Below are positions 15,862 to 31,617 of a stretch of 64,000 bases of DNA, in pieces (position 1 is the first letter of the stretch; each line of letters begins with the position of its first letter). The stretch comes from an uncultured Blautia sp. (lineage in GTDB: Bacteria; Bacillota; Clostridia; Lachnospirales; Lachnospiraceae): contig CAMNTH010000009.1 of the NCBI GenBank assembly GCA_946557785.1, positions 1 through 64,000 of the forward strand. The letters are read 5' to 3'. A program made the translations under genes and the position numbers. Below the pieces are notes generated by a model. The model saw only the letters and a list, made by a program, of their open reading frames with translations, was not told the origin of the DNA and made no database searches.

Positions 15862-15910
15862 TTCCTCATCCTCCATTTCAATTCTTCCATATTCCGTTCT
15901 TAACTCATAT

Positions 15911-15988
15911 AAATATAAAAATCCCGGCATACCCGTAATCACCCACAGTATGCCAGGACTGGATATTTTGATCACGCCTTTGTGATCA
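15911..15988 (-). promoter_or_regulatory. ANTAR-type hexaloop hairpin plus terminator between nitR and aspS
   Basis: Minus-strand RNA reads TGATCAC-AAAGGC-GTGATCA (15988-15969): a 7-bp stem closing a hexaloop with A at position 1 and G at position 4. It is followed by a terminator with stem CCTGGCATAC / GTATGCCGGG (15957 to 15923 region) and ATTTTTATATTT. The 5' arm of the terminator can alternatively pair as CAGT/ACTG just downstream of the hexaloop hairpin. No promoter is seen here, so the unit probably controls read-through from glnA-nitR into aspS-gatCAB-dapL. Confidence 0.72.
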
Positions 15989-16009
15989 GAATTCAATATT
16001 TAATTTCTA

Positions 16010-16564
16010 CTAAATCCCATCATAAAAAAGCATCAGCAGCATCTGTGCTGTTTCTGCCATATCAGTACCGGAATCCATACTGCACTTCTGAATATAGCGG
16101 TATGCTTCCTCTTCGCTTAGATGGTTCCTCTGCATGAGCATCATTTTCGCATTTGAAATATAGTTCTGTTCCTTCCATGTCCGCAGCTTTGGCTTTTTCT
16201 TATCTTTTCTCCCACGGCGTTCAATCTGTTCAAGCACCATACTTACAGTATTCATGAAATCCCCAGCCTTCATAGGCATCTCCAGAGTCAGCACGGATGA
16301 CGGAACCTCCTGGATTATCCTTGGAGATGCAAGAAGGAGCATTTCAAAGCCTTTCGGCAGGCATTCACGCAAATTATGATAATACATATCCGGCAGATGG
16401 TAACCGCAGATCAGGATTCCGCTGTCCAGCCCGGAAATACTGGAAAGTGCATGAGAAGCCGTATTGCAAACTGCAGCTACTGCAAATCCGTGTCTTACCA
16501 GTATCGTACGGATTCTTTTTGCATCTTCAATTTTTGGTAAAGCGATTACGATGCTGCCACTCAT
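16010..16564 (-). CDS. nitR: ANTAR-domain antiterminator, NitR-like
   Basis: 184 residues. The C-terminal third (ISNAKMMLMQRNHLSEEEAY, then QKCSMDSGTDMAETAQMLL) is an ANTAR RNA-binding domain. The N-terminal ~115 residues follow the receiver fold, but the acidic pair after beta-1 is missing (IVIALPKIED) and the phospho-acceptor position reads Gly in ILICGYHLPD, so it cannot be an ordinary phosphorylated response regulator. GAGGAG precedes the start. A glnA-nitR pair with such a protein is known from Clostridium saccharobutylicum. It probably senses nitrogen status through a partner protein and promotes antitermination at leaders in this window. Confidence 0.85.
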   Translation of the reverse strand: MSGSIVIALPKIEDAKRIRTILVRHGFAVAAVCNTASHALSSISGLDSGILICGYHLPDMYYHNLRECLPKGFEMLLLASPRIIQEVPSSVLTLEMPMKAGDFMNTVSMVLEQIERRGRKDKKKPKLRTWKEQNYISNAKMMLMQRNHLSEEEAYRYIQKCSMDSGTDMAETAQMLLMLFYDGI

Positions 16565-16609
16565 ACAATACTACTCCTCATTTTGCTCTTACTGACAAGG
16601 CTTGGAACA

Positions 16610-17932
16610 TTAGACCCGATATAAGTAATTTTCAATTTCCCAATCTGTTACCTGTCTTGTATATTTCAGCCATTCCTTTTTCTTACAAGCTGCATATTTC
16701 TCGCAAAAGTCTCTCCCCAGTACATTTTTCATCCAGGAGCTTCCCTCAAAAAGTTCAATAGCCTCCTTCAAATTCTCCGGAAGGTTCTCCACTGCCTGTA
16801 ACTCTTCAAAGGACCCTTTCTCCGAGCAATCCGATGCCTTTGCAGGTGAAATCTTCTTATGAATCCCATCCATTCCTGCTGCAAGGCAAACTGCAAATAC
16901 CAGGTACGGATTGGATGCCGCGTCCGGACTTCTCAGTTCAATCTTTGTATCTCCTCTCCCTGCAGCCGGAATCCTTACCAGAGAGTTCTGATTATTCCTG
17001 GTCCAGGTCAGTTCCGTAGGCGCCTTATACCCCGGCACAAGACGTTTATAGGAATTTACCAGAGGATTGGTAACAAGCGCCATCTCTCTGCTGTGGGCAA
17101 GAAGTCCGCCAATAAAATAATATGCCTCATTGCTAAGACCCTTATTGTCCTTCTGGCATTCAAAAATATTTTTTCCATCTTTAAAAACAGAAAAGCTGAT
17201 ATGCATACCGGAACCATCCACATCAGTTCTCGGCTTCGGCATAAATGTGGCATGAAGCCCATGACGCTTAGCAATGGTGCGCACTGCCATTTTAAAAGTC
17301 ATAATACGGTCAGCCATTTCATTTACTTCTCCGTTCTTAAAGACAATCTCATGCTGTGCAGGCGCGATCTCGTGATGGGAGGATTCTACTTCAATTCCCA
17401 TATCCTCCAGATTCAGGACCATATCCCTTCTTGCATTCTCCCCAAGATCCAGGGGACTCATGTCAAGATATCCCGCCCTCTCATGGGTCAGTGTGGTTGG
17501 CATGCCATTATCATCCGAATGAAACAGAAAAAATTCACATTCCGGGTCAATAAAGCAGATATAGCCTTCCGCTCTTGCCTTTTTGGACACCTTTCTCAAA
17601 ATAAATCTGGCGCTGTTTACATAGGCGGTTCCATCTGATTTGTATAAATCGCACAAAAGCCTTGCAACCTTCCCCTGCTGGGGCCTCCACGGCAAAACCG
17701 TAAATGTGTTGGGATCCGGATACAAATATAAGTCCGGTTCCGTCTCCTCTGCCACTCCGGCAATGGAGCTTCCGTCAATAATGTATCCGTTATTCAGCAC
17801 CCGGGGAAGTTCCCGAGCAGTAATCGCAATATTTTTCAAAGCACCGAACATATCAGTAAACTGAAGCCGGATAAATTCCACATCCTCTTCTTCAGCCATC
17901 TGCAGGACTTCCTCTCTGGTATAATTCCCCAT
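16610..17932 (-). CDS. glnA: Glutamine synthetase type I
   Basis: 440 residues, the GSI-alpha size found in Firmicutes. It makes glutamine from glutamate, ammonia and ATP in a dodecamer. Seen: FTDMFGALKNI, the IDGSSI loop, GYLDMSPLDLGENARRDMV, ESSHHEIAPAQHEI (metal site), FMPKPRTDVDGSGMHI, and NSYKRLVPGYKAPTELTW (ATP/glutamate site). The adenylylation Tyr motif of GSI-beta enzymes is not present, consistent with feedback rather than covalent control. Its own strong promoter and an attenuator-like leader precede it; nitR follows 45 bases downstream. Confidence 0.96.
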   Translation of the reverse strand: MGNYTREEVLQMAEEEDVEFIRLQFTDMFGALKNIAITARELPRVLNNGYIIDGSSIAGVAEETEPDLYLYPDPNTFTVLPWRPQQGKVARLLCDLYKSDGTAYVNSARFILRKVSKKARAEGYICFIDPECEFFLFHSDDNGMPTTLTHERAGYLDMSPLDLGENARRDMVLNLEDMGIEVESSHHEIAPAQHEIVFKNGEVNEMADRIMTFKMAVRTIAKRHGLHATFMPKPRTDVDGSGMHISFSVFKDGKNIFECQKDNKGLSNEAYYFIGGLLAHSREMALVTNPLVNSYKRLVPGYKAPTELTWTRNNQNSLVRIPAAGRGDTKIELRSPDAASNPYLVFAVCLAAGMDGIHKKISPAKASDCSEKGSFEELQAVENLPENLKEAIELFEGSSWMKNVLGRDFCEKYAACKKKEWLKYTRQVTDWEIENYLYRV

Positions 17933-17956
17933 GTTATTCTCTCCTTATCATTCAAT

Positions 17957-18015
17957 GAAATAAAATAAAGGACGCACTTCTGACTGGTTTCCCCATCAAA
18001 AGAACGTCCTTGTTC
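17957..18015 (-). promoter_or_regulatory. glnA leader: hexaloop hairpin overlapping a terminator
   Basis: Minus-strand RNA starts near 18017 and at once forms GAAC-AAGGAC-GTTC (18015-18002), a hexaloop hairpin with A1 and G4. The loop itself is the 5' arm of a larger hairpin, AAGGACG (18011-18005) with CGTCCTT (17974-17968), with inner pairing TGG/CCA, followed by TATTTTATTTC. The two folds exclude each other, as expected of an ANTAR-controlled antiterminator. The larger stem's T-tract is interrupted. Confidence 0.72.
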
Positions 18016-18023
18016 ATGCAGGT

Positions 18024-18052
18024 ATTATATCAATCGCACAGCTCTTTGTCAA
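18024..18052 (-). promoter_or_regulatory. glnA promoter
   Basis: TTGACA (18052-18047), exactly 17 bases, TATAAT (18029-18024): a perfect consensus sigma-A promoter about nine bases after the gltD stop. Confidence 0.92.
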
Positions 18053-18060
18053 CCACCTTT

Positions 18061-19545
18061 TTAGAGGTTGGTATATCCCATCAGAGATTCGTCAACCACC
18101 TTCGCAGCCTCCCTGCCTTCCCGGATAGCCCATACAACCAGGGATTGGCCTCTGTGCATATCTCCTGCAGCAAATACGCCCTGTACTGAGGTATCATAGC
18201 AGTCCGGCTTTGTGTCAACGTTATTTCGGGCATTCACAGCCACGCCAAAGGCATCTGCCACATATTTTTCGCAGCCAAGGAAGCCTGCTGCTATCAGAAC
18301 TAGATCTGCCGGAATCACTTCCTCTGTCCCTTCTACCGGAACCATCATCATTCTTCCTGTTTTTTCATCCTTTTGTCCTGACAGCTTCACAATCTTCGCT
18401 TTGCAGACTTTCCCCTTCTTATCAGGGATGAATTCTGTTACGGTTGTCTGGTAAATTCTTGGATCACTGCCGAATACGGCAATAGCTTCTTCCTGACCAT
18501 AATCCGTTTTCAGTACTCTAGGCCACTGGGGCCACGGATTGCTCTCCAGCCGTTCCATGGGTAATTTAGGCATCATTTCCAACTGCTTCACTGATTTCGC
18601 TCCTAGGCGGATTGAAGTTCCTACACAGTCATTCCCTGTATCTCCGCCGCCAATAACCAGGACATGCTTTCCCCCTATAAGTTCATAGGGTACTTTTTCA
18701 AAATTACTGTCAAGAAGTGATTTCGTTACCCTTTTTAAGAAATCCACCGCGAAGAAAATCCCCTTTGCATCCCTTCCGGGAACCTTAATATCCCTTGGAT
18801 TGGAGGCTCCGCAGGCCAGAATAACCCTGTCATACTTTTCCTGCAGTTCTTTTGCAGAAACATCCACGCCAATATTGACATTTGGAACAAAACATACGCC
18901 TTCTTCTTCCATAAGACGGATCCTTCTGTCTATCACACATTTTTCAAGTTTCATATTGGGAATCCCATAGCGAAGAAGACCGCCGAACCTGTCGCTTCTC
19001 TCATAAACGGTCACGCTGTGTCCTCTCCTGTTTAGCTGCTGCGCTGCGGCAAGCCCTGCTGGTCCGCTTCCTACAATTGCAACCGTCTTTCCTGTACGCA
19101 CATTAGGTTTCTGCGGTACTACCCAGCCCTCTTCAAAAGCAGTTTCTATGATTGCTCTCTCGTTTTCCTTTGTTGCAACCGGTTCTCCGTCCAGATTGCA
19201 GGTGCAGGCAGCCTCACAAAGGGCCGGACATACTCTGGATGTGAATTCCGGAAAGCTATGGGTCTTGCTTAGGCGATTATATGCCTGTTTCCAGTTTCCC
19301 GTATACACCAGGTCATTGGTTTCTGGAATCAAATTATGAAGCGGACATCCTGATGCCATTCCGGCAATCATGGCTCCGGACTGACAGAAAGGAACGCCGC
19401 AGGCCATGCAGCGTGCTCCCTGTAATTTCTGTTTTTCTTTATTCAGCGGAATCCGGAACTCATGAAAATTGGAAATCCGGATCTTTGGAGGCAGTACCTT
19501 CCCTGTCTCTCTATGATAATCCAAAAAGCCTGTTGGTTTTCCCAT
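18061..19545 (-). CDS. gltD: Glutamate synthase (NADPH) small subunit
   Basis: 494 residues, full length. It oxidises NAD(P)H and passes electrons through FAD and 4Fe-4S clusters to GltB. The N-terminal cluster-binding region has GARCMACGVPFCQSG and RVCPALCEAACTC; the FAD site is VAIVGSGPAGLAAAQQLN and the NAD(P)H site HVLVIGGGDTGNDCVG. A C-terminal GVFAAGDMHRGQSLVVWAI motif closes the FAD domain. It begins 12 bases after gltB, forming pyrG-gltB-gltD. Confidence 0.96.
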   Translation of the reverse strand: MGKPTGFLDYHRETGKVLPPKIRISNFHEFRIPLNKEKQKLQGARCMACGVPFCQSGAMIAGMASGCPLHNLIPETNDLVYTGNWKQAYNRLSKTHSFPEFTSRVCPALCEAACTCNLDGEPVATKENERAIIETAFEEGWVVPQKPNVRTGKTVAIVGSGPAGLAAAQQLNRRGHSVTVYERSDRFGGLLRYGIPNMKLEKCVIDRRIRLMEEEGVCFVPNVNIGVDVSAKELQEKYDRVILACGASNPRDIKVPGRDAKGIFFAVDFLKRVTKSLLDSNFEKVPYELIGGKHVLVIGGGDTGNDCVGTSIRLGAKSVKQLEMMPKLPMERLESNPWPQWPRVLKTDYGQEEAIAVFGSDPRIYQTTVTEFIPDKKGKVCKAKIVKLSGQKDEKTGRMMMVPVEGTEEVIPADLVLIAAGFLGCEKYVADAFGVAVNARNNVDTKPDCYDTSVQGVFAAGDMHRGQSLVVWAIREGREAAKVVDESLMGYTNL

Positions 19546-19557
19546 GTGTTTTCCCCC

Positions 19558-22500
19558 TTAATGTTTTGCACCAATACTTTCATAGAACGCTTCCATCTGT
19601 GCCTGTTCGCTTGTAAGCCCCTTTTCCTCCAGCTTTGCGCTGAGGGTAAGCATTCTCTTATATTCACCTGGAATCAGTTTCTTAAAATGCGGAAGATAGG
19701 ATTCAAAATCCTCCAGGATTTTGGCGCCAAGCTTCGAACCGGTTGCATTCACATGAGCCTGGATCAGATCATGCAATTCTTTCTTATCATATTTATTTTC
19801 CACTTTTTCAATGGAAATCATGGCTTTGTTAATGTTTTTATAAAGCTCGCTGTGCATATCCAGTACATAGGCAATTCCGCCGCTCATACCTGCAGCAAAA
19901 TTTTTGCCCGTTCTGCCAAGAACCACAACACGTCCTCCTGTCATGTATTCACAGCCATGTTCTCCAACTCCTTCCACAACTGCATACGCTCCGGAATTGC
20001 GCACTGCAAACCGCTCCCCTGCAACGCCATTGATAAATGCAGCTCCGCTTGTCGCACCGTAAAGAGCCACATTTCCTATGATAATATTTTCCTCTGCTTT
20101 GTAGGCTGCCTTCTCCGGAACCTTTACGATCAGCTTGCCTCCGGAAAGTCCCTTTCCAAAATAATCATTGCTGTCACCCGTAAGATTCAAAGTAAGACCT
20201 TTGGGAATAAACGCACCAAAACTCTGTCCGCCTGCACCTGTACAATTCACCACAATGGTATCCTCTCTAAGACCTTCTTTATTCTTTCTGGTAATTTCTG
20301 CGCCAAGTATTGTACCAAAGGCTCGATCCGTGTTGGTTACTCCTATGCTGATCTCCACTGGTTTTCCTGCAGCAATAGAATCCCCACACTTTTTCAGCAA
20401 AACCCTTTCATCTAAAGTTTTCTCCAGCTCAAAGTTATATTCTGCTTTCGGATCAAACGTAACCTTTTCCTTGCTTCCCCCATAAGGATTATACAAAATC
20501 CCGCTTAAATCCATTTTTCCTTTATGGGGTTCTTTCACCGAAACAGATGGAACCAGAAGATCTGTCCTCCCAACCATTTCATCTATGGTGCGGATTCCAA
20601 GACGTGCCATATATTCCCGAAGCTCCTGTGCAATAAAACGCATAAAGTTTTCTACATATTCCGGTTTGCCCCGGAATCTTTTTCGAAGCTCCGGGTTCTG
20701 GGTAGCTACGCCCATCGGGCAGGTATCAAGGTTGCAGACACGCATCATTACACAGCCCATAGTCACAAGAGGTCCTGTGGCAAAGCCAAATTCCTCTGCA
20801 CCAAGAAGGGCAGCAACAGCCACATCCCGCCCGCTCATCAGCTTGCCGTCCGTCTCAATCCGCACCCGGTTCCGAAGCCCATTCATCAGCAAAGTCTGAT
20901 GGGTTTCCGCAAGTCCAAGCTCCCATGGAAGACCGGCATTATGAATAGAGCTTCTGGGTGCCGCCCCGGTTCCTCCATCATATCCGGAAATCAAAATCGT
21001 CTGGGCGCCGGCTTTTGCAACACCGGCAGCCACAGTTCCCACGCCTGCTTCCGAAACCAGCTTTACGGAAATATCTGCATATTTATTCGCATTTTTCAGA
21101 TCATAAATCAATTGTGCCAAATCCTCAATAGAATAAATATCATGATGAGGCGGCGGCGAAATCAGGCTGACGCCAGGTGTGGAATGGCGGGTTTTGGCAA
21201 TCCAGGGATAAACCTTCTTTGCCGGAAGGTGCCCTCCTTCTCCTGGTTTTGCCCCCTGAGCCATTTTGATCTGTATTTCTTTTGCAGAAACAAGATACCT
21301 GCTGGTAACGCCAAACCTTCCGCTTGCAACTTGTTTGATTGCTGAACAGCGGTCATTTTGGGATCCTGCGGAATCAATACGTTCCTCACTCTCTCCTCCC
21401 TCGCCTGTATTTGATTTTCCATGGAGATGGTTCATTGCAACAGCCAGGGTTTCATGTGCTTCCTTGGAAATGGAGCCGTAAGACATTGCCCCGGTCTTAA
21501 AGCGCTTCACAATATCCTCCACGCTTTCCACTTCCTCAATAGGAAGTGGGACGTCCGCATATTTTAATTCCAGCAGTCCTCGTAAGTTCCCGTGGCTCTC
21601 CTGATCCACAAGAGACGTATATTCCTTAAACATCCGGTAATCACCGCACTTCGCAGACTGCCAAAGAAGGTGGATTGTTTTTGGATTATACCGGTGTTCC
21701 TCCCCCTGGCTTCTCATCTTATGAGCGCCAACGCTATCCAGCGTCAGATCCGTATTCAGCCCCAGGGGATCAAATGCTTCTGAGTGAAGCTTCTCCACAT
21801 TTTCCTCAATATCTTCCAGCGCAATACCGCCTACACGGCTGACCGTACCGGTAAAATATTTTTCAATTACATCCTGTGAGATTCCAACCGCTTCAAAAAT
21901 CTGAGCGCCCTGGTAAGACTGCAGCGTAGAAATTCCCATCTTGGAGGCAATTTTGACAATGCCACTTAAAACGGCATGATTATAATCATCTACGGCTGCA
22001 TAATAGTCCTTATCCAGCATATGATTATCAATCAGCTCTTTTATGGTTTCCAATGCAAGATAAGGATTGACCGCACTTGCTCCATATCCCAAAAGAGCAG
22101 CAAAATGGTGTACCTCTCTGGGTTCGCCGGACTCCACAATAATTGACATAGAAGTACTTTTTTTGGTTTTCACAAGATGCTGATGCACAGCAGATACTGC
22201 CAGGAGAGAGGGAATTGGCATATGGTTTTCATCCACGCCTCTGTCAGACAGTACTAATATATTCGCACCCTCACGAAATGCCTTATCTACCTCCACAAAC
22301 AGCCTGTCAATTGCACGTTCCAGCTTGGTACTCTTATAATAAAGGGCGGAAACTACCGCTACCTTAAATCCTTCCAGTTTCATATCCTTAATCTTCAGCA
22401 TATCCGTATTTGTGAGAATGGGATGAGCTATTTTCAAGACCTGGCAGTTTTGAGGCTGCTGTATCAAAAGATTTCCATCCTTACCTACATAGACCGCAGT

Positions 22501-24099
22501 AGATGTTACAATCTCCTCACGGATGGAATCAATTGGAGGATTTGTAACCTGGGCAAATATCTGTTTAAAGTAGTCAAACAAAGGACGGTGCTCTTTTGAA
22601 AGAACAGCAAGCGGTGTATCCACGCCCATAGCTCCAATGCTTTCACTGCCATTTCGTGCCATATTCCGGATAGAAGTTCGATACTGTTCATAAGTATATC
22701 CAAATGCCTTCTGCAGGCGCGCCCTCTGCTCCTCCGTATATTCCTCCACTCTCTTATTTGGAATTTTAATATCCATAAGCCGGACAAGACAACTATTCAG
22801 CCATTCTCCATATGGATGCATTCCGGCATAGGTTTCTTTTAATTCATCGTCATCAATGATTCTTCCCTGAATGGTATCTACAAGAAGCATCTTTCCCGGA
22901 TGGAGACGCTCTTTCAGTATGATTTTCTCTTCCTGAACAGACAAAACCCCTACTTCAGAGGAAAGAATCACATAGCCGTCAGACGTAACATAATATCTCG
23001 ATGGGCGAAGACCGTTCCGGTCAAGCACAGCCCCCATCACATCTCCATCGGAAAACAAAATTGATGCGGGGCCGTCCCATGGCTCCATCATGGTTGCATA
23101 ATACTGATAAAAATCTCTCTTTTCCTGGGAAATAGTATCATTATTTGCCCATGGCTCAGGAATGGTGATCATCACTGCAAGAGGCAGTTCCATGCCGCTC
23201 ATCACCAAAAACTCCAATGTATTATCAAGCATAGCAGAATCTGATCCTAAACGATTGACCACCGGGAGAACCTTGTGCAGCTCGCCTTTAAGATATGGTG
23301 ATTCCATATTTTCTTCCCTGGCCAGCATTTTATCTGCATTTCCCCGGATGGTATTGATTTCTCCGTTATGTACCATAAAACGGTTTGGATGAGCCCTTTC
23401 CCAGCTAGGATTAGTATTGGTGCTGAAGCGGGAATGAACCATGGCAATTGCTGATTCATAATCAGCACTCTGCAAATCTGCAAAAAATGTACGAAGCTGT
23501 CCTACAAGAAACATGCCTTTATAAACGATGGTTCTGCTGCTCATAGAAACAACATAGGTATTGTCATTGCTTTGTTCAAACTCACGGCGGGCAATATAAA
23601 GCATTCTGTCAAAAGGAAGGCCTTTTTCCACATCTTGTGGTTTTTTAATGAATGCCTGCATGATACATGGCATGCATTCCTTTGCCTTATGTCCCAGCAC
23701 TTCCGGAATTACAGGTACCATTCTCCATCCAAGAAGCTCAAGTCCTTCTTTCCGGATAATAATTTCAAACATTTTTTTCGCCTGGGCACGCTTGATCTCG
23801 TGCTGAGGAAAGAAAAACTGTGCAATACCATATTCCCGCTCCGATCCGATTTCAATTCCTTCCTTTTTGCATGCCTTTTTAAAAAATTTGTGTGAAATCT
23901 GCAATAAAATGCCTACCCCGTCTCCGGTTTTTCCCTCTGCATCTTTTCCTGCTCTGTGCTCGAGATTCTCCACAATTTTCAGGGCATTAACAACCGTATC
24001 ATGGGTTTTCTTTCCTCTGATGTTGACTACTGCGCCGATACCGCAGTTATCATGTTCAAATTGGGGGCGGTACAGGCCGGCCTCTTCCTTTCTTTTCAT
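19558..24099 (-). CDS. gltB: Glutamate synthase (NADPH) large subunit
   Basis: 1513 residues from the ATG at 24099 (AAGGA eight bases upstream; an ATG nine bases earlier is also possible). It converts glutamine and 2-oxoglutarate to two glutamates. After a short propeptide comes the class II amidotransferase Cys in FEHDNCGIGAVV; then the central domain, the FMN/3Fe-4S synthase domain (IKQVASGRFGVTSRYLVSAK, GYDGGTGAAPRSSIHNAGLPWEL, and CNLDTCPMGVATQ cluster ligands) and the C-terminal glutamate synthase alpha-subunit beta-helix (GGRVVVLG). It starts 23 bases after pyrG ends. Confidence 0.97.
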   Translation of the reverse strand: MKRKEEAGLYRPQFEHDNCGIGAVVNIRGKKTHDTVVNALKIVENLEHRAGKDAEGKTGDGVGILLQISHKFFKKACKKEGIEIGSEREYGIAQFFFPQHEIKRAQAKKMFEIIIRKEGLELLGWRMVPVIPEVLGHKAKECMPCIMQAFIKKPQDVEKGLPFDRMLYIARREFEQSNDNTYVVSMSSRTIVYKGMFLVGQLRTFFADLQSADYESAIAMVHSRFSTNTNPSWERAHPNRFMVHNGEINTIRGNADKMLAREENMESPYLKGELHKVLPVVNRLGSDSAMLDNTLEFLVMSGMELPLAVMITIPEPWANNDTISQEKRDFYQYYATMMEPWDGPASILFSDGDVMGAVLDRNGLRPSRYYVTSDGYVILSSEVGVLSVQEEKIILKERLHPGKMLLVDTIQGRIIDDDELKETYAGMHPYGEWLNSCLVRLMDIKIPNKRVEEYTEEQRARLQKAFGYTYEQYRTSIRNMARNGSESIGAMGVDTPLAVLSKEHRPLFDYFKQIFAQVTNPPIDSIREEIVTSTAVYVGKDGNLLIQQPQNCQVLKIAHPILTNTDMLKIKDMKLEGFKVAVVSALYYKSTKLERAIDRLFVEVDKAFREGANILVLSDRGVDENHMPIPSLLAVSAVHQHLVKTKKSTSMSIIVESGEPREVHHFAALLGYGASAVNPYLALETIKELIDNHMLDKDYYAAVDDYNHAVLSGIVKIASKMGISTLQSYQGAQIFEAVGISQDVIEKYFTGTVSRVGGIALEDIEENVEKLHSEAFDPLGLNTDLTLDSVGAHKMRSQGEEHRYNPKTIHLLWQSAKCGDYRMFKEYTSLVDQESHGNLRGLLELKYADVPLPIEEVESVEDIVKRFKTGAMSYGSISKEAHETLAVAMNHLHGKSNTGEGGESEERIDSAGSQNDRCSAIKQVASGRFGVTSRYLVSAKEIQIKMAQGAKPGEGGHLPAKKVYPWIAKTRHSTPGVSLISPPPHHDIYSIEDLAQLIYDLKNANKYADISVKLVSEAGVGTVAAGVAKAGAQTILISGYDGGTGAAPRSSIHNAGLPWELGLAETHQTLLMNGLRNRVRIETDGKLMSGRDVAVAALLGAEEFGFATGPLVTMGCVMMRVCNLDTCPMGVATQNPELRKRFRGKPEYVENFMRFIAQELREYMARLGIRTIDEMVGRTDLLVPSVSVKEPHKGKMDLSGILYNPYGGSKEKVTFDPKAEYNFELEKTLDERVLLKKCGDSIAAGKPVEISIGVTNTDRAFGTILGAEITRKNKEGLREDTIVVNCTGAGGQSFGAFIPKGLTLNLTGDSNDYFGKGLSGGKLIVKVPEKAAYKAEENIIIGNVALYGATSGAAFINGVAGERFAVRNSGAYAVVEGVGEHGCEYMTGGRVVVLGRTGKNFAAGMSGGIAYVLDMHSELYKNINKAMISIEKVENKYDKKELHDLIQAHVNATGSKLGAKILEDFESYLPHFKKLIPGEYKRMLTLSAKLEEKGLTSEQAQMEAFYESIGAKH

Positions 24100-24122
24100 A
24101 CTCCTCATCCTTTCTCTCTCTT

Positions 24123-25733
24123 CTATTGGAAATTTGCATAATGCAGTGCAGATCGTATGAATCCCTCAAACAGCGGATGTGCCTGATCCGGGCGGGATTT
24201 AAACTCCGGATGTCCCTGGGTTCCCACAAAAAACGGATGTTTTTTTATCTCTATCATTTCTACGATACGATCGTCCGGAGAGGTTCCGGCAATCATCATC
24301 CCCTTCTCCATTAGTTGTGCCCTGTAAGCATTATTCACCTCGTAACGATGCCGATGCCGTTCCTGAATTTCTTTTTTACCAAAGAGGCTGATGGAAATGG
24401 TGTCTTCTTTCAGGATGCAGGGATAGCTCCCAAGCCGCAGGGTACCTCCCAAATTCTTTACGCTTTCCTGATCCGGCATAAGCGCAATCACCGGATGCTT
24501 TGTTTCCGCATCCAGCTCCATACTGTTGGCATCCTGATACCCTAAAACATTCCGGGCATACTCAACGATAGCCATCTGCATCCCAAGGCAAATTCCCAGG
24601 AAAGGAACCCTATGTGTTCTTGCGTACCAAGCCGCAAGTATCATTCCCTGCGTCCCCCTATTTCCAAATCCACCTGGGACCAGGATTCCATCCGCACCAT
24701 GAAGTCTCTGATCCAAACTTCTTTCGTCCAGTTCCTCTGAATCCATCCATATAATGTCCGGCTTTGTCCTGCATGCAATCCCTCCATGCTTCAATGCTTC
24801 CACCACACTTAAATAAGCATCATGAAGCTGGGTATACTTTCCTACCACTGCAATCTTCACTGTACCGCAGGGATCCTTCAGGCTATTTACCATAGCTTTC
24901 CAGTCTTCCAGATCCGGCTCCCTGTTTTGCAGGTGCAGACACTCAAGAACAACATCCGCAAGTTTCTCCTTCTCCATTGCAAGAGGAGCTTCATACAAGT
25001 ATTCTACGTCCAGGTTTTGTAAGACACGACTTATCGGAACATTACAGAACAGGGCAATCTTTTCTTTTACTTCTTCTGTAACCGGATACTCGCTTCTGCA
25101 TACCAGGATATCCGGCTGGATTCCCATTCCCTGCAGTTCCTTCACGCTTGCCTGGGTAGGTTTCGTTTTCATTTCACATGATGCTTTCAGGTAAGGGATC
25201 AAAGTTACATGAAGCAGTATTGCATTCTCCCTCCCTGCCTCATGTTGAAACTGACGGATTGCTTCTAAAAAGGGCTGACTTTCAATATCCCCAACAGTTC
25301 CTCCTACCTCTATAATGGCAATCCGTTCTTCTTCCTCCGTCTTTCCCCTGTAAAATCTGCTTTTAATCTCATTTGTAATATGAGGGATCACCTGCACAGT
25401 TCCTCCGCCAAAATCTCCGCGGCGTTCCTTCTGGAGCACGGACCAGTAAATCTTTCCTGTAGTAACATTGGAATTTTTGTCCAGGGATTCGTTAATAAAA
25501 CGCTCATAGTGCCCAAGGTCAAGATCTGTCTCCGTTCCGTCATCTGTTACAAATACTTCTCCATGCTGAATGGGATTCATAGTTCCGGGATCAATGTTAA
25601 TATAGGGGTCAAACTTCTGCATGGTTACCTGATATCCTCTGGCCTTCAGCAACCTGCCAAGAGATGCTGCGGTAATACCTTTTCCAAGACCGGATACTAC
25701 TCCGCCTGTGACAAACACATATTTTACTGCCAT
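24123..25733 (-). CDS. pyrG: CTP synthase
   Basis: 536 residues. It amidates UTP to CTP with ATP and glutamine. The amidoligase domain opens [23 protein letters not shown], with [13 protein letters not shown] and [11 protein letters not shown]; the C-terminal class I glutaminase has the oxyanion/nucleophile motifs PGGFGNRG and FLGICLGMQ, and the His-Glu pair in [11 protein letters not shown]. It is first in a pyrG-gltB-gltD operon, an unusual grouping that makes sense as glutamine-using enzymes, and has a leader attenuator unlike the reiterative-G type known from Bacillus. Confidence 0.97.
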
Positions 25734-25780
25734 CTGTGATTTCCTCCTCTATTACCCTGAAAGATTTTCTATCATCATGC

Positions 25781-25847
25781 AAGAAAAAAAGCGCCGGAAA
25801 CAGAAAATAGGGAATACCCCTTTTTCTGTTTCTGACGCCTTTGTCAG
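25781..25847 (-). promoter_or_regulatory. pyrG leader: hexaloop hairpin overlapping a long terminator
   Basis: CTGAC-AAAGGC-GTCAG (25847-25832) is a 5-bp stem with an AAAGGC hexaloop, the same loop as in the aspS leader. Bases 25838-25832 also form the start of the 5' arm of a 22-position terminator stem (GCGTC...GGCGC, two mismatches, TATT loop, 25838-25791) followed by TTTTTTTCTT. The hexaloop hairpin and terminator exclude each other, so the hairpin would act as antiterminator. Confidence 0.8.
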
Positions 25848-25880
25848 CTCTATTGTGCATCTTTTTTAAATATGTGCATT

Positions 25881-25909
25881 ACTATAACCTATTTTGGATA
25901 ATTTGTAAA
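25881..25909 (-). promoter_or_regulatory. pyrG operon promoter
   Basis: TTTACA (25909-25904), 17 bases, TATAGT (25886-25881), about 35 bases upstream of the hexaloop hairpin. Confidence 0.78.
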
Positions 25910-25919
25910 TATGTTATTT

Positions 25920-27302
25920 TTATTTTCCTGGAATACCCATTGGATATTCACCTGTAAAGCAGGCTTTGCACAGCGGCAGACCGCCGGCCATACCTTCCAG
26001 GGAGTCAATTTTCATATATCCCAGAGAGTCTGCTCCAATAAGGCGGCAAATTTCTTCCATGCTGTTTGTACTCGCAATCAATTCATTATTTGATGGAACA
26101 TCAGTTCCAAAATAGCAGGGATATAAAAATGGAGGAGAAGAAATCCTTACATGAACTTCCAAGGCTCCGGCATCCTTCAGCATCCGAATCAGATTTTTAA
26201 TCGTGGTTCCTCTGACAATAGAGTCATCCACAAGAACGATCCGCTTTTCTCTGACTGCTGATTCCAGAACGCTTAATTTCAGATGAACCCCGGATTCCCG
26301 TTCCTTCTGGGTAGGCTTAATAAAGGTTCTGCCGATATAGCTGTTTTTATAAAAAGCAAAGCCAAAGGGAATGCCGGACTCCTCCGAGTACCCCTTAGCT
26401 GCAGTAACACCTGATTCCGGAACGCCTGTCACAAGGTCAGCCTCCACAGGATAGGATTTTGCCAGGGATTTCCCGCCCCGGATACGGGCGTCATAAATCC
26501 GCACGCCGTCCATGGTACTATCCAGCCTTGCAAAGTAAATGTACTCAAAAACACAATGGGCGTGCTTCTTTATGGCCAGGCTCTTATCTGAAACAATCCC
26601 CTGCCTGGTAATGGCAACAATCTCTCCCGGCTCCACATCCCTTACAAATTCCGCCCCAACACAGGTAAGCGCGCAGCTTTCAGATGCCAATACATAGGTG
26701 TTTTCTTTTTTCCCGATGCAAAGAGGTTTTAGCCCATAAGGGTCGCGCACACCCACCAATTTCCGCGGACTCATTATAACCAGAGCATATGCCCCTTTCA
26801 TCTTCTCTGCTGTTTTTCTTATAGCCTCCTCTGCCGTTTTGGAATGCACCCGTTCCCTTGCAATATGAAACGCAATCACTTCCGAATCCGTTGTAGAATG
26901 GAAAATAGCTCCTGTCTGAATCAGCTCCCATTTCAGTTCTTCAGTATTCACCAGATTCCCATTATGGGCAAGGGCAAGAGTTCCTTTCACGTATGTAAGA
27001 ACCAAAGGCTGGGCATTCTCCGCCACGGAATCACCTGTGGTAGAATAACGTACATGGCCCACTCCAATATCTCCTTCCATGGAATTAAGGGTATCTTCCC
27101 GCAAAACCTCGCTTACAAGCCCAAGATTCTTATGAAACTGCACGCTCCCAACGGTTCCGTCTGTCCTGGAAACTGCCAGCCCGCAGGCTTCCTGGCCCCT
27201 GTGCTGTAAAGACGTCAGTCCATAATAAATCGAGGGAACCACATTTCCCCCGTCTAAATCATAGATTCCAAAAACACCGCACTCTTCCTTAATTTCAGCC
27301 AT
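25920..27302 (-). CDS. purF: Amidophosphoribosyltransferase
   Basis: 460 residues from the ATG at 27302, with GGAGG eight bases upstream. It makes phosphoribosylamine from PRPP and glutamine, the first committed step of purine synthesis. MAEIKEE is a short propeptide before the catalytic Cys (CGVFGIYD), as in the Bacillus-type enzyme that also carries a 4Fe-4S cluster (C-terminal PLCKACFTGEYP supplies Cys ligands). The PRPP-binding motif is IVLVDDSIVRGTT. It stands alone with its own promoter, divergent from glnN. Confidence 0.96.
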   Translation of the reverse strand: MAEIKEECGVFGIYDLDGGNVVPSIYYGLTSLQHRGQEACGLAVSRTDGTVGSVQFHKNLGLVSEVLREDTLNSMEGDIGVGHVRYSTTGDSVAENAQPLVLTYVKGTLALAHNGNLVNTEELKWELIQTGAIFHSTTDSEVIAFHIARERVHSKTAEEAIRKTAEKMKGAYALVIMSPRKLVGVRDPYGLKPLCIGKKENTYVLASESCALTCVGAEFVRDVEPGEIVAITRQGIVSDKSLAIKKHAHCVFEYIYFARLDSTMDGVRIYDARIRGGKSLAKSYPVEADLVTGVPESGVTAAKGYSEESGIPFGFAFYKNSYIGRTFIKPTQKERESGVHLKLSVLESAVREKRIVLVDDSIVRGTTIKNLIRMLKDAGALEVHVRISSPPFLYPCYFGTDVPSNNELIASTNSMEEICRLIGADSLGYMKIDSLEGMAGGLPLCKACFTGEYPMGIPGK

Positions 27303-27339
27303 TAAATCAACCTCCATCCTAACATTTTCTTGTCAAGTC

Positions 27340-27361
27340 CTATTTAACGTTCTCTAAATAG
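27340..27361 (-). other. Small dyad in the purF leader
   Basis: CTATTTA (27340-27346) and TAAATAG (27355-27361) flank eight bases in the purF 5' untranslated region. No terminator or T-tract accompanies it, so a role is uncertain; it might be an operator. Confidence 0.4.
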
Positions 27362-27376
27362 TTCTATACTTTCTGC

Positions 27377-27404
27377 ATTATAATTCCAGTCCAAAATTTG
27401 TCAA
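27377..27404 (-). promoter_or_regulatory. purF promoter
   Basis: TTGACA (27404-27399), 16 bases, TATAAT (27382-27377), about 75 bases from the purF start codon. Confidence 0.88.
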
Positions 27405-27450
27405 CCCTTTTTCTTTTTTCACTTTTGCAAAAAATTTTTTAAGAAAAACA

Positions 27451-27478
27451 TTGACAACTTTTATTTTTCGTGTATACT
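27451..27478 (+). promoter_or_regulatory. glnN promoter
   Basis: TTGACA (27451-27456), 16 bases, TATACT (27473-27478). Transcription should start near 27485, a few bases before the leader hairpin. Confidence 0.82.
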
Positions 27479-27487
27479 ACCACACAT

Positions 27488-27527
27488 AAGCAACGGCGCT
27501 TTGGATCATTTCCAAGGCGCCTTTTTT
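27488..27527 (+). promoter_or_regulatory. glnN leader: hexaloop hairpin overlapping a terminator
   Basis: AAGC-AACGGC-GCTT (27488-27501) is a hexaloop hairpin with A1 and G4. Its loop and 3' arm are also the 5' arm of a textbook intrinsic terminator: 11-bp stem from GGCGC (27495) to GCGCC (27521), loop TCATT, then TTTTTT (27522-27527). A terminator between a promoter and the gene it serves must be an attenuator; the hexaloop hairpin is the obvious antiterminator. Confidence 0.8.
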
Positions 27528-27548
27528 GTTAGAAAGGAGCACACCTAT

Positions 27549-29648
27549 ATGGCACAGAATATTCCTGAATTATACGGCAGTCTTGTATTCAACGACAAGA
27601 TCATGCGTACCAAATTACCAAAAGATATGTACAAAGCACTGAAAAAAACTATACAGAACGGTTCCCACCTGGAACTGGACGTAGCCAATTCTGTAGCAGT
27701 TGCCATGAAAGAATGGGCAATCGAAAACGGTGCCACCCATTATACTCATTGGTTCCAGCCAATGACCAACTTCACTGCCGAAAAACATGACAGCTTCATT
27801 TCCCCTACAGGCGATGGACAGATCATTATGGATTTCTCCGGCAAGGAACTTGTAAAAGGAGAACCAGATGCATCCAGTTTTCCCTCCGGAGGGCTCCGAG
27901 CTACATTTGAAGCAAGAGGATATACTGCATGGGATCCTACCTCCCCTGCCTTTATTAAAGACCGTACCCTTTACATTCCCACTGCATTCTGCTCCTACAG
28001 CGGTGAAGCACTGGACAAGAAAACGCCTCTTCTGCGTTCCATGGATGCATTAAATACACAGGCATTGAAGCTGCTGCGTATCCTTGGCAATACAGAGGTA
28101 CGCCACGTCACCACTACCGTAGGACCGGAGCAGGAATACTTCCTTGTTGACAAAGAGCTTTATAACCAGAGAAAGGATCTGATCTTCTGCGGCCGTACTT
28201 TAATTGGTGCACCAGCTCCAAAAGGCCAGGAAATGGAAGATCACTATTTCGGAACATTGAAGCCAAGGATTTCCTCCTATATGCATGACCTGGATGAGGA
28301 GCTGTGGAAGCTTGGAATTCCGGCAAAGACAAAACATAATGAAGTTGCACCTGCCCAGCATGAGCTTGCCCCGGTTTTTGACACCACCAATGTTTCAGTT
28401 GACCACAATCAGCTTACCATGGAAATCATGAAGAAAGTAGCCGATAAGCATGGAATGGTCTGCCTCCTTCACGAAAAACCATTTGAAGGCATCAATGGAA
28501 GCGGTAAACACAACAACTGGTCCATGAGCACGGATACAGGTGTAAACCTTTTGGATCCAGGCAAGACTCCTGCTGAAAACATCCAGTTCCTGGTATTTTT
28601 AACAGCAGTTATCAAGGCCGTAGATGATTATGCAGATCTCCTGCGTATCTCTGTTGCAAGCGCAGGAAATGACCACAGGCTAGGGGCAAATGAGGCGCCT
28701 CCTGCTATCGTATCCATTTTCCTTGGAGATGAACTCATGGAAGTTCTAAGCTCCATTGAAAAGGACGAATTCTTTACAGGTCACGGCGTTGTCCAAATGG
28801 ATATTGGTGCAAAGGTACTCCCTCACTTTGTAAAGGACAATACAGACAGAAACCGTACCTCTCCCTTTGCATTTACAGGCAATAAATTTGAGTTCCGTAT
28901 GCTTGGCTCTTCTTCTTCCGTAGCCAGCCCCAACATTATACTGAATACTGCCGTGGCAGAAGTACTCCGCCAGTTTGCCAATACTCTTGAGGGCGTCTCT
29001 GCCGGAGAAATAAACCATGCGGTTCACAAACTTTTAAAAGAAACTATTACAGCTCATAAGCGTATCATCTTCAATGGCAATGGATATACAGACGAATGGG
29101 TGGAGGAAGCCCAAAGGCGGGGGCTTTACAATCTAAAGGCTACCCCTGATGCTCTGGAGATGTTTATCAGCCCCAAAAATGAGGCGCTGCTTACAGGGCA
29201 CAACATCTTTACAAAGGGTGAGCTTTATTCCCGTTATGAAATTAAGCTTGAAAATTATATAAAGACTCTGCATATTGAGTCCAACACTATGGCTGAAATC
29301 ATTCGAAAAGATCTTCTTCCCAGCATTACACAGTACATGGAACAGGTTGCACGTACTGCGAGCCTGAAGAAATCCGTAATTCCGGACATTTCCGTTTCCT
29401 GCGAAGCGGCTGTTCTTACAAAGCTCACTTCCCTTTCGGAAGCCATGACTGCCGGGCTTGACGCCCTAAAGAGAGATACTGACACAGCAGAAGGCTGCAC
29501 GGATATCCTGTCCAGCGCAAAAACATATGAATCCATTGTACTCTCTGACATGGAAAATCTCCGGAAATCTGCTGATGAAGCAGAGGCTATGCTACCTGAA
29601 AACATTCTCCCGTATCCTACATACGGCAGGCTTCTCTTCTCTATCTAA
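27549..29648 (+). CDS. glnN: Glutamine synthetase type III
   Basis: 699 residues from the ATG at 27549 (AAGGAG nine bases upstream); an earlier in-frame start would overlap the leader terminator. GSIII enzymes are large hexamer-of-dimers type glutamine synthetases. Family signs: PSSFPSGGLRATFEARGYTAWDP, GPEQEYFLVDKELY, KTKHNEVAPAQHE, LLHEKPFEGINGSGKHNNWS, and AGNDHRLGANEAPPAI. It is divergent from purF and followed by the Amt-PII gene in the same direction. With glnA it makes a second, probably nitrogen-limitation, route to glutamine. Confidence 0.95.
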   Translation: MAQNIPELYGSLVFNDKIMRTKLPKDMYKALKKTIQNGSHLELDVANSVAVAMKEWAIENGATHYTHWFQPMTNFTAEKHDSFISPTGDGQIIMDFSGKELVKGEPDASSFPSGGLRATFEARGYTAWDPTSPAFIKDRTLYIPTAFCSYSGEALDKKTPLLRSMDALNTQALKLLRILGNTEVRHVTTTVGPEQEYFLVDKELYNQRKDLIFCGRTLIGAPAPKGQEMEDHYFGTLKPRISSYMHDLDEELWKLGIPAKTKHNEVAPAQHELAPVFDTTNVSVDHNQLTMEIMKKVADKHGMVCLLHEKPFEGINGSGKHNNWSMSTDTGVNLLDPGKTPAENIQFLVFLTAVIKAVDDYADLLRISVASAGNDHRLGANEAPPAIVSIFLGDELMEVLSSIEKDEFFTGHGVVQMDIGAKVLPHFVKDNTDRNRTSPFAFTGNKFEFRMLGSSSSVASPNIILNTAVAEVLRQFANTLEGVSAGEINHAVHKLLKETITAHKRIIFNGNGYTDEWVEEAQRRGLYNLKATPDALEMFISPKNEALLTGHNIFTKGELYSRYEIKLENYIKTLHIESNTMAEIIRKDLLPSITQYMEQVARTASLKKSVIPDISVSCEAAVLTKLTSLSEAMTAGLDALKRDTDTAEGCTDILSSAKTYESIVLSDMENLRKSADEAEAMLPENILPYPTYGRLLFSI

Positions 29649-29679
29649 ACCGGAAGGAAGTTTTCTACAATTTCATAAG

Positions 29680-29776
29680 GTAAAACCAGGGGATATCCGC
29701 TATGAATATCTACTTCATAATTTATTATCGTTTTCCTCATCCATGAATCACACGATACCGGTATCCCCTGTTTTAC
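29680..29776 (+). repeat. Long inverted repeat between glnN and amt
   Basis: GTAAAACCAGGGGATA (29680-29695) is complementary to TATCCCCTGTTTTAC (29762-29776) but for one unpaired base, giving a 15-bp stem with a 66-base interior. The interior contains the palindrome GATACCGGTATC (29754-29765), partly shared with the right arm. It may be part of the amt leader structure or the glnN 3' end. Confidence 0.65.
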
Positions 29777-29788
29777 ATACACATTCAG

Positions 29789-29832
29789 TTCGCAAAGATG
29801 CGGAGGGCTTAAATTCAGTCCTCCGCATTTTT
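29789..29832 (+). promoter_or_regulatory. amt leader: hexaloop hairpin overlapping a terminator
   Basis: TTCGC-AAAGAT-GCGGA (29789-29804; one T-G pair) is a hexaloop hairpin with A1 and G4. The last two loop bases and the 3' arm also form the 5' arm of terminator ATGCGGAGG (29798-29806) / CCTCCGCAT (29820-29828) followed by TTTTT. GAT-ACCGGT-ATC at 29754-29765 could be a second, weaker A1/G4 hexaloop upstream, matching the two-hairpin layout described for ANTAR targets. No clear promoter was found between glnN and here. Confidence 0.78.
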
Positions 29833-29877
29833 CGATAAACTCTAACATTTTATTTCAATAACAGGGAGGAAATTATT

Positions 29878-31617
29878 ATGGGATTTTCATCTGCAAACAC
29901 AATCTGGGTGCTCCTTGGCGCTGCCCTGGTCTTCTTCATGCAGGCCGGTTTTGCAATGGTAGAAACAGGCTTTACCAGAGCAAAAAATGCAGGCAATATT
30001 ATCATGAAAAACCTGATGGATTTCTGTATCGGAACACCAACCTTCTGGATCATTGGATTCGGAATTATGTTTGGTACGGGAAATGGGTTCTTCGGCTCCA
30101 TCCATGGTCTGGCATCAGAAGCCAATTATGGAACCGGAATGCTTCCTGAAGGAGTTCCTTTCTGGGCATTCTTAATTTTCCAGACGGTCTTCTGTGCAAC
30201 ATCTGCTACCATTGTTTCCGGCGCTATGGCTGAACGTACCAAATTTTCTTCCTACTGCGTCTACAGCTTTTTGATCAGTCTCATCGTCTATCCGGTATCA
30301 GGCCATTGGATCTGGGGCGGAGGTTTCATCAGCCAAATGGGCTTCCATGATTTTGCCGGTTCCTGTGCAGTCCATATGGTCGGCGGCGTTGCAGCCTTTA
30401 TCGGCGCTGTTGTACTTGGTCCCCGTATCGGCAAATATACCAAAGACGGAAAATCTAAGGCCATTCCCGGCCATAACCTGACCGTAGGCGCATTAGGCGT
30501 TTTTATACTCTGGTTCTGTTGGTTCGGATTCAATGGTGCTTCTACTGTCAGCATGGAAGGTGCTGCCATTATAAGCGCAGGAAAAATCTTTGTCACCACC
30601 AACCTGGCTGCTGCTGTTGCAACCGTAACGGTTATGGCCATCACATGGATCCGCTACGAAAAGCCGGATGTTTCCATGTCCCTTAACGGTTCTCTCGCCG
30701 GTCTGGTTGCCATTACCGCAGGCTGTGATACAGTATCTCCTGCATCAGCTGCCATTATCGGCATTCTCTCCGGATTCCTCGTTGTTTTTGGCATCGAGTT
30801 TATTGACAAAATTCTGAAAGTAGATGATCCTGTAGGAGCAGTAGGTGTTCATGGCCTAAACGGAGCCTTTGGTACCCTTGCAGTAGGAATTTTCTCAGAC
30901 GGAACCGGAACCGGCTGGAAGGGACTTCTGGTTGGAGGCGGCTTTGAGGGCTTTAAAGTGCAGTTTCTTGGTATGTTCGCCACCGTCGTATGGGTCGCTG
31001 TTACAATGACCATCATCTTCCAGCTGATCAAACATACAATGGGGCTCCGCGTATCTCCGGAAGAAGAAATTGCCGGCCTGGATGGCAAGGAACATGGCCT
31101 TACCAGTGCATATGACGGATTTGTCGTTCATGATTCCATGACAACAGTCCCCACCCCCATGGGTGTCTCCAAAGCAGATCCTGCTTCCGAGACTTATGCT
31201 GCTGTCTCTGCTCCTGCGGAATTCATTCCTGGGATCCCGGCAGAGGGTGTACACAAGCTTACAAAAGTAGTCATCATTACCCGGCAAAGCAAGCTGGAAG
31301 ATTTTATGCATGCCATGAATGAAATCGGCGTAACCGGGATCACCATCACAAATGTCATGGGCTGTGGAGTTCAAAAAGGCGCCCGTTCTTTCTACCGCGG
31401 CGTTGAAATGGATATGAATCTTCTTCCAAAGATCAAGATTGAGATCGTTGTCAGCCTGGTTCCTGTAAAGAAGGTTGTGGAAACCGCAAAGGCAGTCCTT
31501 CACACAGGACAATACGGAGACGGCAAGGTATTTGTATACGATATCGAAAATGTCGTAAAAATCCGTACAGGTGAGGAAGGCTTCATGGCACTTCAGGATA
31601 CCCATCCCCTTGATTAA
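29878..31617 (+). CDS. Ammonium channel fused to a PII signalling domain
   Basis: 579 residues. Residues 1 to about 410 form an Amt channel with about 11 membrane segments ([23 protein letters not shown], the [21 protein letters not shown] segment, [25 protein letters not shown]). After a linker, residues about 455-579 are a GlnK/GlnB domain ([64 protein letters not shown]). The T-loop reads [20 protein letters not shown]: the uridylylated Tyr of enterobacterial PII (in AEYSVN) is replaced by Met. The fusion ties gating directly to 2-oxoglutarate/ADP-ATP sensing. Such fusions are known in some clostridia. GGAGG precedes the start. Confidence 0.93.

Follow-up and report, generated by a model that had tools for sequence, protein, structure and literature searches.

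Does one RNA-binding protein govern a whole island of nitrogen genes by reading a small hairpin at the head of each transcript? The question is raised by a 64,000-nucleotide (nt) stretch of an uncultured Blautia sp. (Lachnospiraceae; assembly GCA_946557785.1, contig CAMNTH010000009.1, positions 1 to 64,000), hereafter the window. Here nitR, annotated as an ANTAR-type gene, lies among genes for glutamine synthesis, ammonium uptake and glutamine consumption. A first-pass annotation had claimed that the leaders of aspS, glnA, pyrG-gltBD, glnN and amt share a hairpin whose six-base loop carries A at position 1 and G at position 4 (A1/G4 hexaloop). We consider it likely that these leaders attenuate transcription within a single nitrogen regulon, with NitR as their reader. 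The sequence evidence consists of the hairpins, their overlap with terminators, stem covariation, the predicted promoter position, the distribution of the leaders and the pseudo-receiver of NitR.

A1/G4 hexaloop leaders in the window and in relatives

All five hairpins are present where the first-pass annotation had placed them, with the loops it had given. The overlap with the 5′ arm of an intrinsic terminator, claimed for four leaders, was confirmed for glnA, pyrG-gltBD, glnN and amt, and not for aspS.

15969-15988, minus strand: aspS leader hairpin P1, loop AAAGGC, 7-bp stem, upstream of the terminator
18002-18015, minus strand: glnA leader hexaloop, GAAC[AAGGAC]GTTC, 4 bp, right after a TATAAT box (18024-18029, by eye)
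17962-18011, minus strand: glnA terminator, overlapping the hexaloop
25832-25847, minus strand: pyrG leader hexaloop, CTGAC[AAAGGC]GTCAG, 5 bp
25784-25842, minus strand: pyrG terminator, overlapping the hexaloop
27488-27501, plus strand: glnN leader hexaloop, AAGC[AACGGC]GCTT, 4 bp; 47.6 bits, E 2.4e-8 genome-wide, with R1, a covariance model built from leaders, the glnN and amt leaders of the window included
27495-27527, plus strand: glnN terminator, overlapping the hexaloop
29789-29804, plus strand: amt leader hexaloop, TTCGC[AAAGAT]GCGGA, 5 bp with one G-U, the weakest of the five
29797-29832, plus strand: amt terminator, overlapping the hexaloop

The loop-closing pair is C-G in all five hairpins, and in glnA, pyrG, glnN and amt the loop and 3′ stem lie within the 5′ arm of a strong intrinsic terminator. 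No T-box was seen in the hexaloop leaders of the window. No Rfam family reached its gathering score in the window, and one chance small nucleolar RNA match (E 0.14) was obtained in positions 15800-29900. By itself, the window does not establish the hexaloops beyond chance: a loose scan (stem of at least 4 bp, weak terminator) returned 24 A1/G4 cases, compared to 24 and 24 for two other loop classes. We therefore turned to relatives, and it is the comparative tests that establish them.

The relatives comprise 54 named loci and 20 stretches from genomes of the family, all strongly syntenic. In 70 of these 74 loci glnA lies directly 5′ of nitR; three of the others (L064, L101 and L105) are without glnA or an intact nitR and in the fourth (L103) NitR has diverged and falls below the filter. 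Because some loci are duplicates (L033 and L063, for example), distinct upstream sequences were counted. One detector, requiring an A1/G4 hexaloop and an overlapping terminator, was applied to the upstream regions of all genes. Leaders were recognised at glnA (42/66), glnN (26/39), pyrG (10/19), amt (12/29), purF (9/25) and once at aspS (1/27), and at none of the gltB (0/19), dapL (0/59), nitR (0/68), gatC (0/44), gatA (0/42), gatB (0/40) and gltD (0/25) regions. Fifteen other loop classes gave at most 4 leaders in any of glnA, glnN, pyrG, amt and purF, and at most 5 in any gene. On the antisense strand, the counts were 1/66 for glnA (43 being counted on the sense strand in this comparison), 2/19 for pyrG, 5/39 for glnN and 2/29 for amt; they rose to 18/25 for purF because its upstream region holds the divergent glnN leader. 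The glnN genes also provide an internal control, with leaders at 26 of 29 distinct orthologues and at 0 of 10 second-copy genes. The amt leaders were found at 6/16 genes of at least 60% identity and at 6/13 below. In the relatives carrying a purF hexaloop leader (L141, L143, L144, L147, L140, L142, L159 and L062), it is mostly divergent from that of glnN; none was recognised at the purF of the window.

Covariation in the leaders of relatives was the check that had been proposed for these hairpins, and it came out in their favour: the stems covary, and the A1/G4 class stands far above the 15 others. In a loop-anchored test (C-AANGGY-G followed by a T run, with no stem demanded beyond the closing pair) 77 distinct hairpins were collected, the glnA and amt loops of the window being absent since they do not fit the anchor. 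Of these, 77, 76 and 74 have stem pairs 2, 3 and 4, respectively (shuffled means 63.7, 50.5 and 39.5; maxima 69, 59 and 49), and 42 have pair 5 (shuffled mean 33.8, maximum 43), with pairs 6 and 7 near the mean. Position 4 of the stem is filled by AU, GC, UA, GU, CG and UG pairs. Among 41 aligned leaders, whose rows had been picked with a stem requirement, every cell pairs and covariation reaches 0.831, compared to 0.328 when shuffled and at most 0.397 when slid. The closing pair is C-G in 40 of the 41 and U-G in one.

The end of a predicted −10 box falls 4-11 nt ahead of the stem in 42/44 glnA and 24/26 glnN leaders, against 10% and 12% in shuffled sequences, respectively. By prediction, therefore, the RNA begins with the hairpin or only very shortly before it. 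In the window, the glnN hexaloop lies a few bases 3′ of the predicted transcript start (TTGACA at 27451; TATACT ending at 27478). Only 2 of 101 leaders (glnA, pyrG, purF, glnN and amt) had another A1/G4 hexaloop in the 55 nt upstream, no more than for other loop classes. Ramesh et al. (2012) described a dual-hexaloop rule for ANTAR leaders (PMC3369931). Having one hexaloop, at the predicted transcript 5′ end, is where the present leaders chiefly depart from that rule; this agrees with the redefinition of the minimal ANTAR motif as one hexaloop (PMC8934654), a claim that such leaders would be well suited to test. Tandem R1 matches 10-22 nt apart, perhaps double attenuators, occur in some genomes (G010:C6:109942-110070, G036:C33:59375-59480 and G109:C156:4635-4778).

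Members of the proposed regulon

On the minus strand the genes are ordered pyrG-gltB-gltD, glnA-nitR and aspS-gatC-gatA-gatB-dapL, with glnN and amt on the plus strand. The closest named nitR loci are on Blautia or Eubacteriales/Clostridiales contigs, with NitR identities of 71-86%.

24123-25733, minus strand: pyrG, CTP synthase, leading the pyrG-gltB-gltD unit (open reading frame (ORF) named by eye; orthologues at the same place in relatives)
19558-24108, minus strand: gltB, glutamate synthase large subunit (ORF named by eye; orthologues; start 24099 likely)
18061-19545, minus strand: gltD, glutamate synthase small subunit (ORF named by eye; orthologues)
16610-17932, minus strand: glnA, glutamine synthetase, 5′ of nitR (PF00120/PF03951)
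14530-15879, minus strand: aspS, non-discriminating aspartate--tRNA(Asn) ligase (NF003483 546 bits and TIGR00458 402 bits, both above cut-off; likely start 15861)
14217-14507, minus strand: gatC (TIGR00135, above cut-off)
12692-14173, minus strand: gatA (TIGR00132, above cut-off)
11266-12711, minus strand: gatB (TIGR00133, above cut-off)
10037-11251, minus strand: dapL, final gene of the aspS-gatCAB unit, here without its own leader (TIGR03542, above cut-off)
27549-29648, plus strand: glnN, type III glutamine synthetase (PF12437/PF18318/PF00120, on the ORF taken from 27501)
29878-31617, plus strand: amt, ammonium transporter with a fused C-terminal PII domain (PF00909, PF00543)

Since its AspS is non-discriminating, aspS-gatCAB represents the glutamine-dependent route to Asn-tRNA, an established pathway. 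Like dapL, gltB has no leader of its own in the window; in one other locus (L214), dapL carries its own hexaloop leader. Amt with its fused PII domain (29878-31617, plus strand) is a possible nitrogen sensor for NitR. The genome also encodes a second type III glutamine synthetase (L166, C33:1179-3275), 55% identical to GlnN.

In a scan of the window's own genome, R1 ranked glnN first, then glnA, a site 5′ of a sodium/amino-acid symporter gene (contig C2; GTAC[AAAGGT]GTAC, L180 1501-1552), a site 5′ of a helicase-like gene (C14) and pyrG. Among the weaker matches, one (E 1.3, three stem pairs only) lies 5′ of a glutamine-type ABC binding protein gene (C10; L184 1501-1547); the genes at C2, C14 and C10 were named by eye. 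The scan did not list amt, and within the window it gave aspS only 11.3 bits. Across the family, 60 match regions were drawn from those R1 matches (E below about 0.008) for which no locus existed, a few such matches not being included (G063, G069). The downstream gene was named by BLAST to proteins of the window in 35 of them: glnN 14, gltB-like 6, glnA 5, amt 4, PII 2, purF 2 and pyrG 2, with two of these namings resting on 20-33% identity. Ten more were named by eye (asnB, gdhA, asnA, purC, a GltB-domain protein, amino-acid binding proteins and an aminotransferase), so that about 45 of the 60 have nitrogen genes downstream. Among 30 earlier loci, 25 have nitrogen genes by eye, including asnB, gdhA, gltB, amt and PII.

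The claim of a nitrogen regulon that includes glutamine consumers was supported, with reservations over aspS, whose leader is built differently, and over amt, whose window hairpin R1 missed. The aspS leader is organised as follows, downstream of P1.

15917-15958, minus strand: intrinsic terminator of the aspS leader (leader fold −32.4 kcal/mol, with P1 and the terminator both formed)
15949-15965, minus strand: candidate second hairpin P2, TATCC[AGTCCT]GG(C)ATA, loop A1/C4, overlapping the 5′ arm of the terminator

One could therefore suppose that only glnA, glnN and pyrG, with purF in relatives, are targets of NitR, and that the aspS and amt hairpins of the window are relics or coincidences. 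For aspS, the absence of any overlap between P1 and the terminator and the way in which related leaders were recognised speak for this. Seven aspS leaders, that of the window included, were recognised with a pattern that fixed 2 of 6 P1 pairs (the closing two), 2 of 5 P2 pairs and UCCA[AG]UCCUGG; six of the seven had first been spotted in an unfiltered listing. Nevertheless, P1 is paired in 100% of the cells of these seven leaders, with two pairs changed on both sides, and the linker could fold over the terminator as hairpin P2, with A[AG]UCCU as its loop (97% of cells paired, no pair changed on both sides). For amt, the R1 scan did not recover the hairpin of the window even though this was part of its training set, and two other loop classes reach 4/29 each in the amt upstream regions, compared to 12/29 for A1/G4. 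Against this, AAAGGC hexaloops occur in a number of amt leaders from relatives, and other genomes have amt among their targets. We judge it unlikely that both hairpins are bystanders; aspS and amt are the weaker members of the regulon. In three relatives (L038, L046 and L083) a T-box-like GGGTGGTACCGCGG tract was seen by eye 5′ of aspS, which suggests that control of aspS has been swapped between systems.

The first-pass annotation knew of no description of such a regulon that takes in tRNA amidation, dapL and CTP synthesis. Ramesh et al. (2012) had already predicted ANTAR motifs in other bacteria, Desulfotomaculum among them, 5′ of the genes for glutamine and glutamate synthases, PII and ammonium transporters (PMC3369931). 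These regulons follow a dual-hairpin model, and tRNA amidation, dapL, CTP and purine genes are not mentioned in the passages on them (PMC3369931); what looks new is hence confined to the wider membership and the use of a single hairpin. Compared to EutV and NasR, the regulon, as read from sequence, appears to extend to tRNA amidation, dapL, and CTP, purine and asparagine synthesis. No published description of the regulon, nor of the glnN RNA element presented below, was found among the matches listed, which are without subscription papers and supplements.

If so, the uses of glutamine (in Asn-tRNA amidation and in the synthesis of CTP, purines and asparagine) would be handled together with its production. 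Few bacterial nitrogen regulons are known to join the two.

NitR as the candidate reader of the leaders

16010-16564, minus strand: nitR, ANTAR RNA-binding protein with a pseudo-receiver, 184 amino acids (PF03861, 57.4 bits; cut-off 27.3)

The ANTAR assignment of nitR was thus borne out by the Pfam score, and nitR is the only ANTAR gene found in its own genome. Position 54, aligned by eye with the phosphorylated aspartate, is G or S and never D in all 75 NitR sequences examined (window included). EutV Lys149, Glu160 and Met172 have matching residues that never vary in NitR (75/75), and the counterpart of Tyr164 is His, Tyr or Phe in 74/75; the numbering of the EutV paper is two below that of the chain, as deduced from residue identities. 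An AlphaFold2 model (mean predicted local distance difference test 84.4) shows alternating strands and helices, then three ANTAR helices. Its closest folds in the PDB are EutV, Rv1626 and AmiR (1qo0), then other response regulators, with EutV 6ww6 as best solved match (template modelling score 0.65 on the query).

From these sequences we infer binding by NitR, the direction of control, a partner and a signal, as follows. The transcript would start with, or soon reach, a hairpin of at least 4 bp closed by C-G, with loop A-A-N-G-G-C or a close variant. By default, the loop and 3′ stem would become the 5′ arm of the terminator and transcription would stop within roughly 60 nt. Active NitR would hold the hexaloop, the terminator arm would be occupied and the terminator would not fold, allowing readthrough into glnA-nitR, glnN, pyrG-gltBD, amt and, via the P1/P2 variant, aspS-gatCAB-dapL. 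NitR activity would probably be set by a partner protein reporting glutamine or nitrogen status. A protein partner is likely because the NitR receiver, as that of AmiR, is without a phospho-acceptor; because of the gene order, glutamine synthetase, encoded just upstream, would be the best candidate as a first guess.

Known systems offer partial parallels. EutV shares with NitR the ANTAR domain, and the eut leaders of Enterococcus faecalis the A1/G4 hexaloop and the overlap with the terminator 5′ arm (PMC3369931, PMC8934654). However, EutV has a phosphorylated receiver and reads two tandem hexaloops, in contrast to the pseudo-receiver of NitR and its mostly single 5′-end hexaloop. AmiR of Pseudomonas aeruginosa is an ANTAR antiterminator which, like NitR, has a non-phosphorylated pseudo-receiver and is controlled by a partner, AmiC (PMC3369936); it serves a single amidase operon and not a nitrogen-assimilation regulon. 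The nitrate assimilation proteins NasR and NasT share the A1/G4 hexaloops, the closing C-G and the nitrogen theme (PMC7496416), and differ by a nitrate-sensing NIT domain or a NasS partner and by two-hairpin leaders. The C-G closure of the loop was obtained for NasR by systematic evolution of ligands by exponential enrichment (SELEX) (PMC7496416).

The NitR of Clostridium saccharobutylicum shares the name and the glnA-nitR gene order; no paper on it was found among the matches listed.

NitR itself is widespread in the family. It was matched at E≤0.001 in 129 of 150 sampled family genomes (107 of these at E≤1e-20), and the rest of the 129 have weak matches, 15 of which were checked and proved to be ANTAR genes. 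In the wider class, matches at E≤1e-15 are rare (12 of 118 genomes, own included). The leaders follow the ANTAR genes. R1 was run on 60 chosen family genomes, none of whose handles gave training loci, an overlap with the named genomes being possible: matches at E≤0.01 occurred in 29/30 NitR-bearing genomes, in 16/18 with another or diverged ANTAR protein and in 0/12 in which no ANTAR gene was found, that is in 45/48 ANTAR-bearing compared to 0/12 ANTAR-less genomes. NitR and 5′-terminal hexaloops thus point to a family-wide nitrogen switch in the Lachnospiraceae, dominant gut bacteria.

Several observations weigh against this reading. The genomes are related and the leader counts are therefore not independent, and 24 of 66 distinct glnA upstream regions have no recognised leader. 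At E≤0.1, three of the 12 ANTAR-less genomes have one R1 match each and one of the 30 NitR-bearing genomes has none. About 15 of the 60 match regions have other or unrecognised genes downstream, R1 missed the amt hairpin, and aspS P1 does not fit the overlap rule. On the protein side, the EutV Arg168 position is an invariant Gln in NitR, and in the NitR of the window the backbone contacts Arg142, Arg168, Arg175 and Arg177 of EutV are all replaced. Finally, known ANTAR leaders have two hexaloops where those of the Blautia type mostly have one, and NasR binds a single hairpin about 12-fold more weakly (PMC7496416).

The attenuators might instead be read by another factor (a riboswitch ligand, the ribosome or another RNA-binding protein), NitR being a mere neighbour. 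The tie between NitR and the RNA is an indirect one, which counts against our reading, and leaders were also found in 16 of the 18 genomes tested whose ANTAR protein matches NitR weakly or escaped the NitR search. We nevertheless find another reader improbable: the A1/G4 hexaloop with a closing C-G is the ANTAR recognition element (PMC8934654, PMC7496416), the leaders track ANTAR genes and no relevant Rfam match was obtained in the window.

It is less probable still that NitR acts at the 5′ end as a repressor or RNA stabiliser and not as an antiterminator. A 5′-terminal hairpin can influence mRNA decay, and the direction of control is a predicted one, yet hairpin and terminator share bases in the four window leaders, as in known antitermination; the leaders of relatives give no independent support on this point since their detector demanded the overlap. 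Finally, that the inverted repeats are DNA operators of a transcription factor is hardly credible: those of glnA and glnN do lie at the predicted transcription start, where a repressor would bind, but the stem letters vary freely between genes while pairing persists, the conserved part is an asymmetric loop on the sense strand followed by a terminator, and in 8/10 pyrG leaders 18-33 nt separate the hairpin from the predicted −10 box.

A structured RNA in the glnN 3′ untranslated region

29679-29776, plus strand: structured RNA element of about 98 nt in the glnN 3′ untranslated region (3′UTR), by consensus fold, separate from the hexaloop system

The consensus fold of 15 sequences has 28 pairs, of which 7 show compensatory changes; the covariation term of RNAalifold is slightly unfavourable (+0.35 kcal/mol). 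The element had no Rfam match. With a strict pattern, it was found once per genome in 19 of 41 genomes of the genus, shortly 3′ of glnN in 18 of these and near a contig end in the other. It follows glnN even when amt is on another contig (G158 and G184).

Its invariant loop UUUCCUCAUCC is complementary to the ribosome-binding sites of aspS and gltB. Among 53 candidate starts in the window, gltB (−21.0) and aspS (−20.3) gave the best pairing, with the third at −20.2. Shuffled loops paired with aspS at a mean of −14.9 (standard deviation 2.9, minimum −29.5), which puts the real loop ahead by only some two standard deviations. Within Blautia proper, the medians of the duplex energy were −23.7 for aspS, −22.5 for pyrG and −20.5 for gltB, compared to −10.1 to −16.4 for the remaining genes represented by at least two sequences; in other species, aspS, pyrG and gltB gave −12.7 to −13.7; this Blautia group was set by kinship, with the element checked in part of it, and the aspS row of the window was taken from a wrong start (−12.6; the start used elsewhere gives −20.3).

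Genome-wide, GGATGAGGAAA has 22 sites (reversed pattern 3), one being the element itself and only aspS resembling a gene start by eye. The pattern GGATGAGG-N(1-7)-ATG has 45 (reversed pattern 8), three of which resemble gene starts: aspS, gltB and a plsY-like gene. The 45 sites were considered as a refutation of start-site pairing, and this was dropped, nearly all of them lying inside coding frames by eye. A preset start filter passed 0 of 30 sites because aspS and gltB are open in frame upstream. The aspS start sequence, with at most one mismatch, was found in 19/19 element-bearing and 2/22 other genomes, the match being assumed to lie at aspS and kinship confounding the co-occurrence; one of these two (G179) has a diverged element. 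We regard the predicted pairing with the aspS and gltB start regions as a lead, not a result.

Two RNA layers may then be envisaged, a scheme to which we give some chance while doubting it. NitR, freed or held by glutamine synthetase, would open the terminators, and the loop UUUCCUCAUCC of the glnN mRNA, itself a putative NitR target, would pair with the ribosome-binding sites of aspS-gatCAB-dapL, gltBD and perhaps pyrG, lowering their translation when glutamine is short. A 3′UTR RNA in a glutamine synthetase mRNA has a parallel in GlnZ, a small RNA of Enterobacteriaceae derived from the glnA 3′UTR, Hfq-dependent and with sucA as main target (PMC9731577). GlnZ differs from the glnN element in its dependence on Hfq and its origin in glnA instead of glnN; what the glnN element has in common with GlnZ-like small RNAs is a conserved structured RNA in the 3′UTR of a glutamine synthetase gene.

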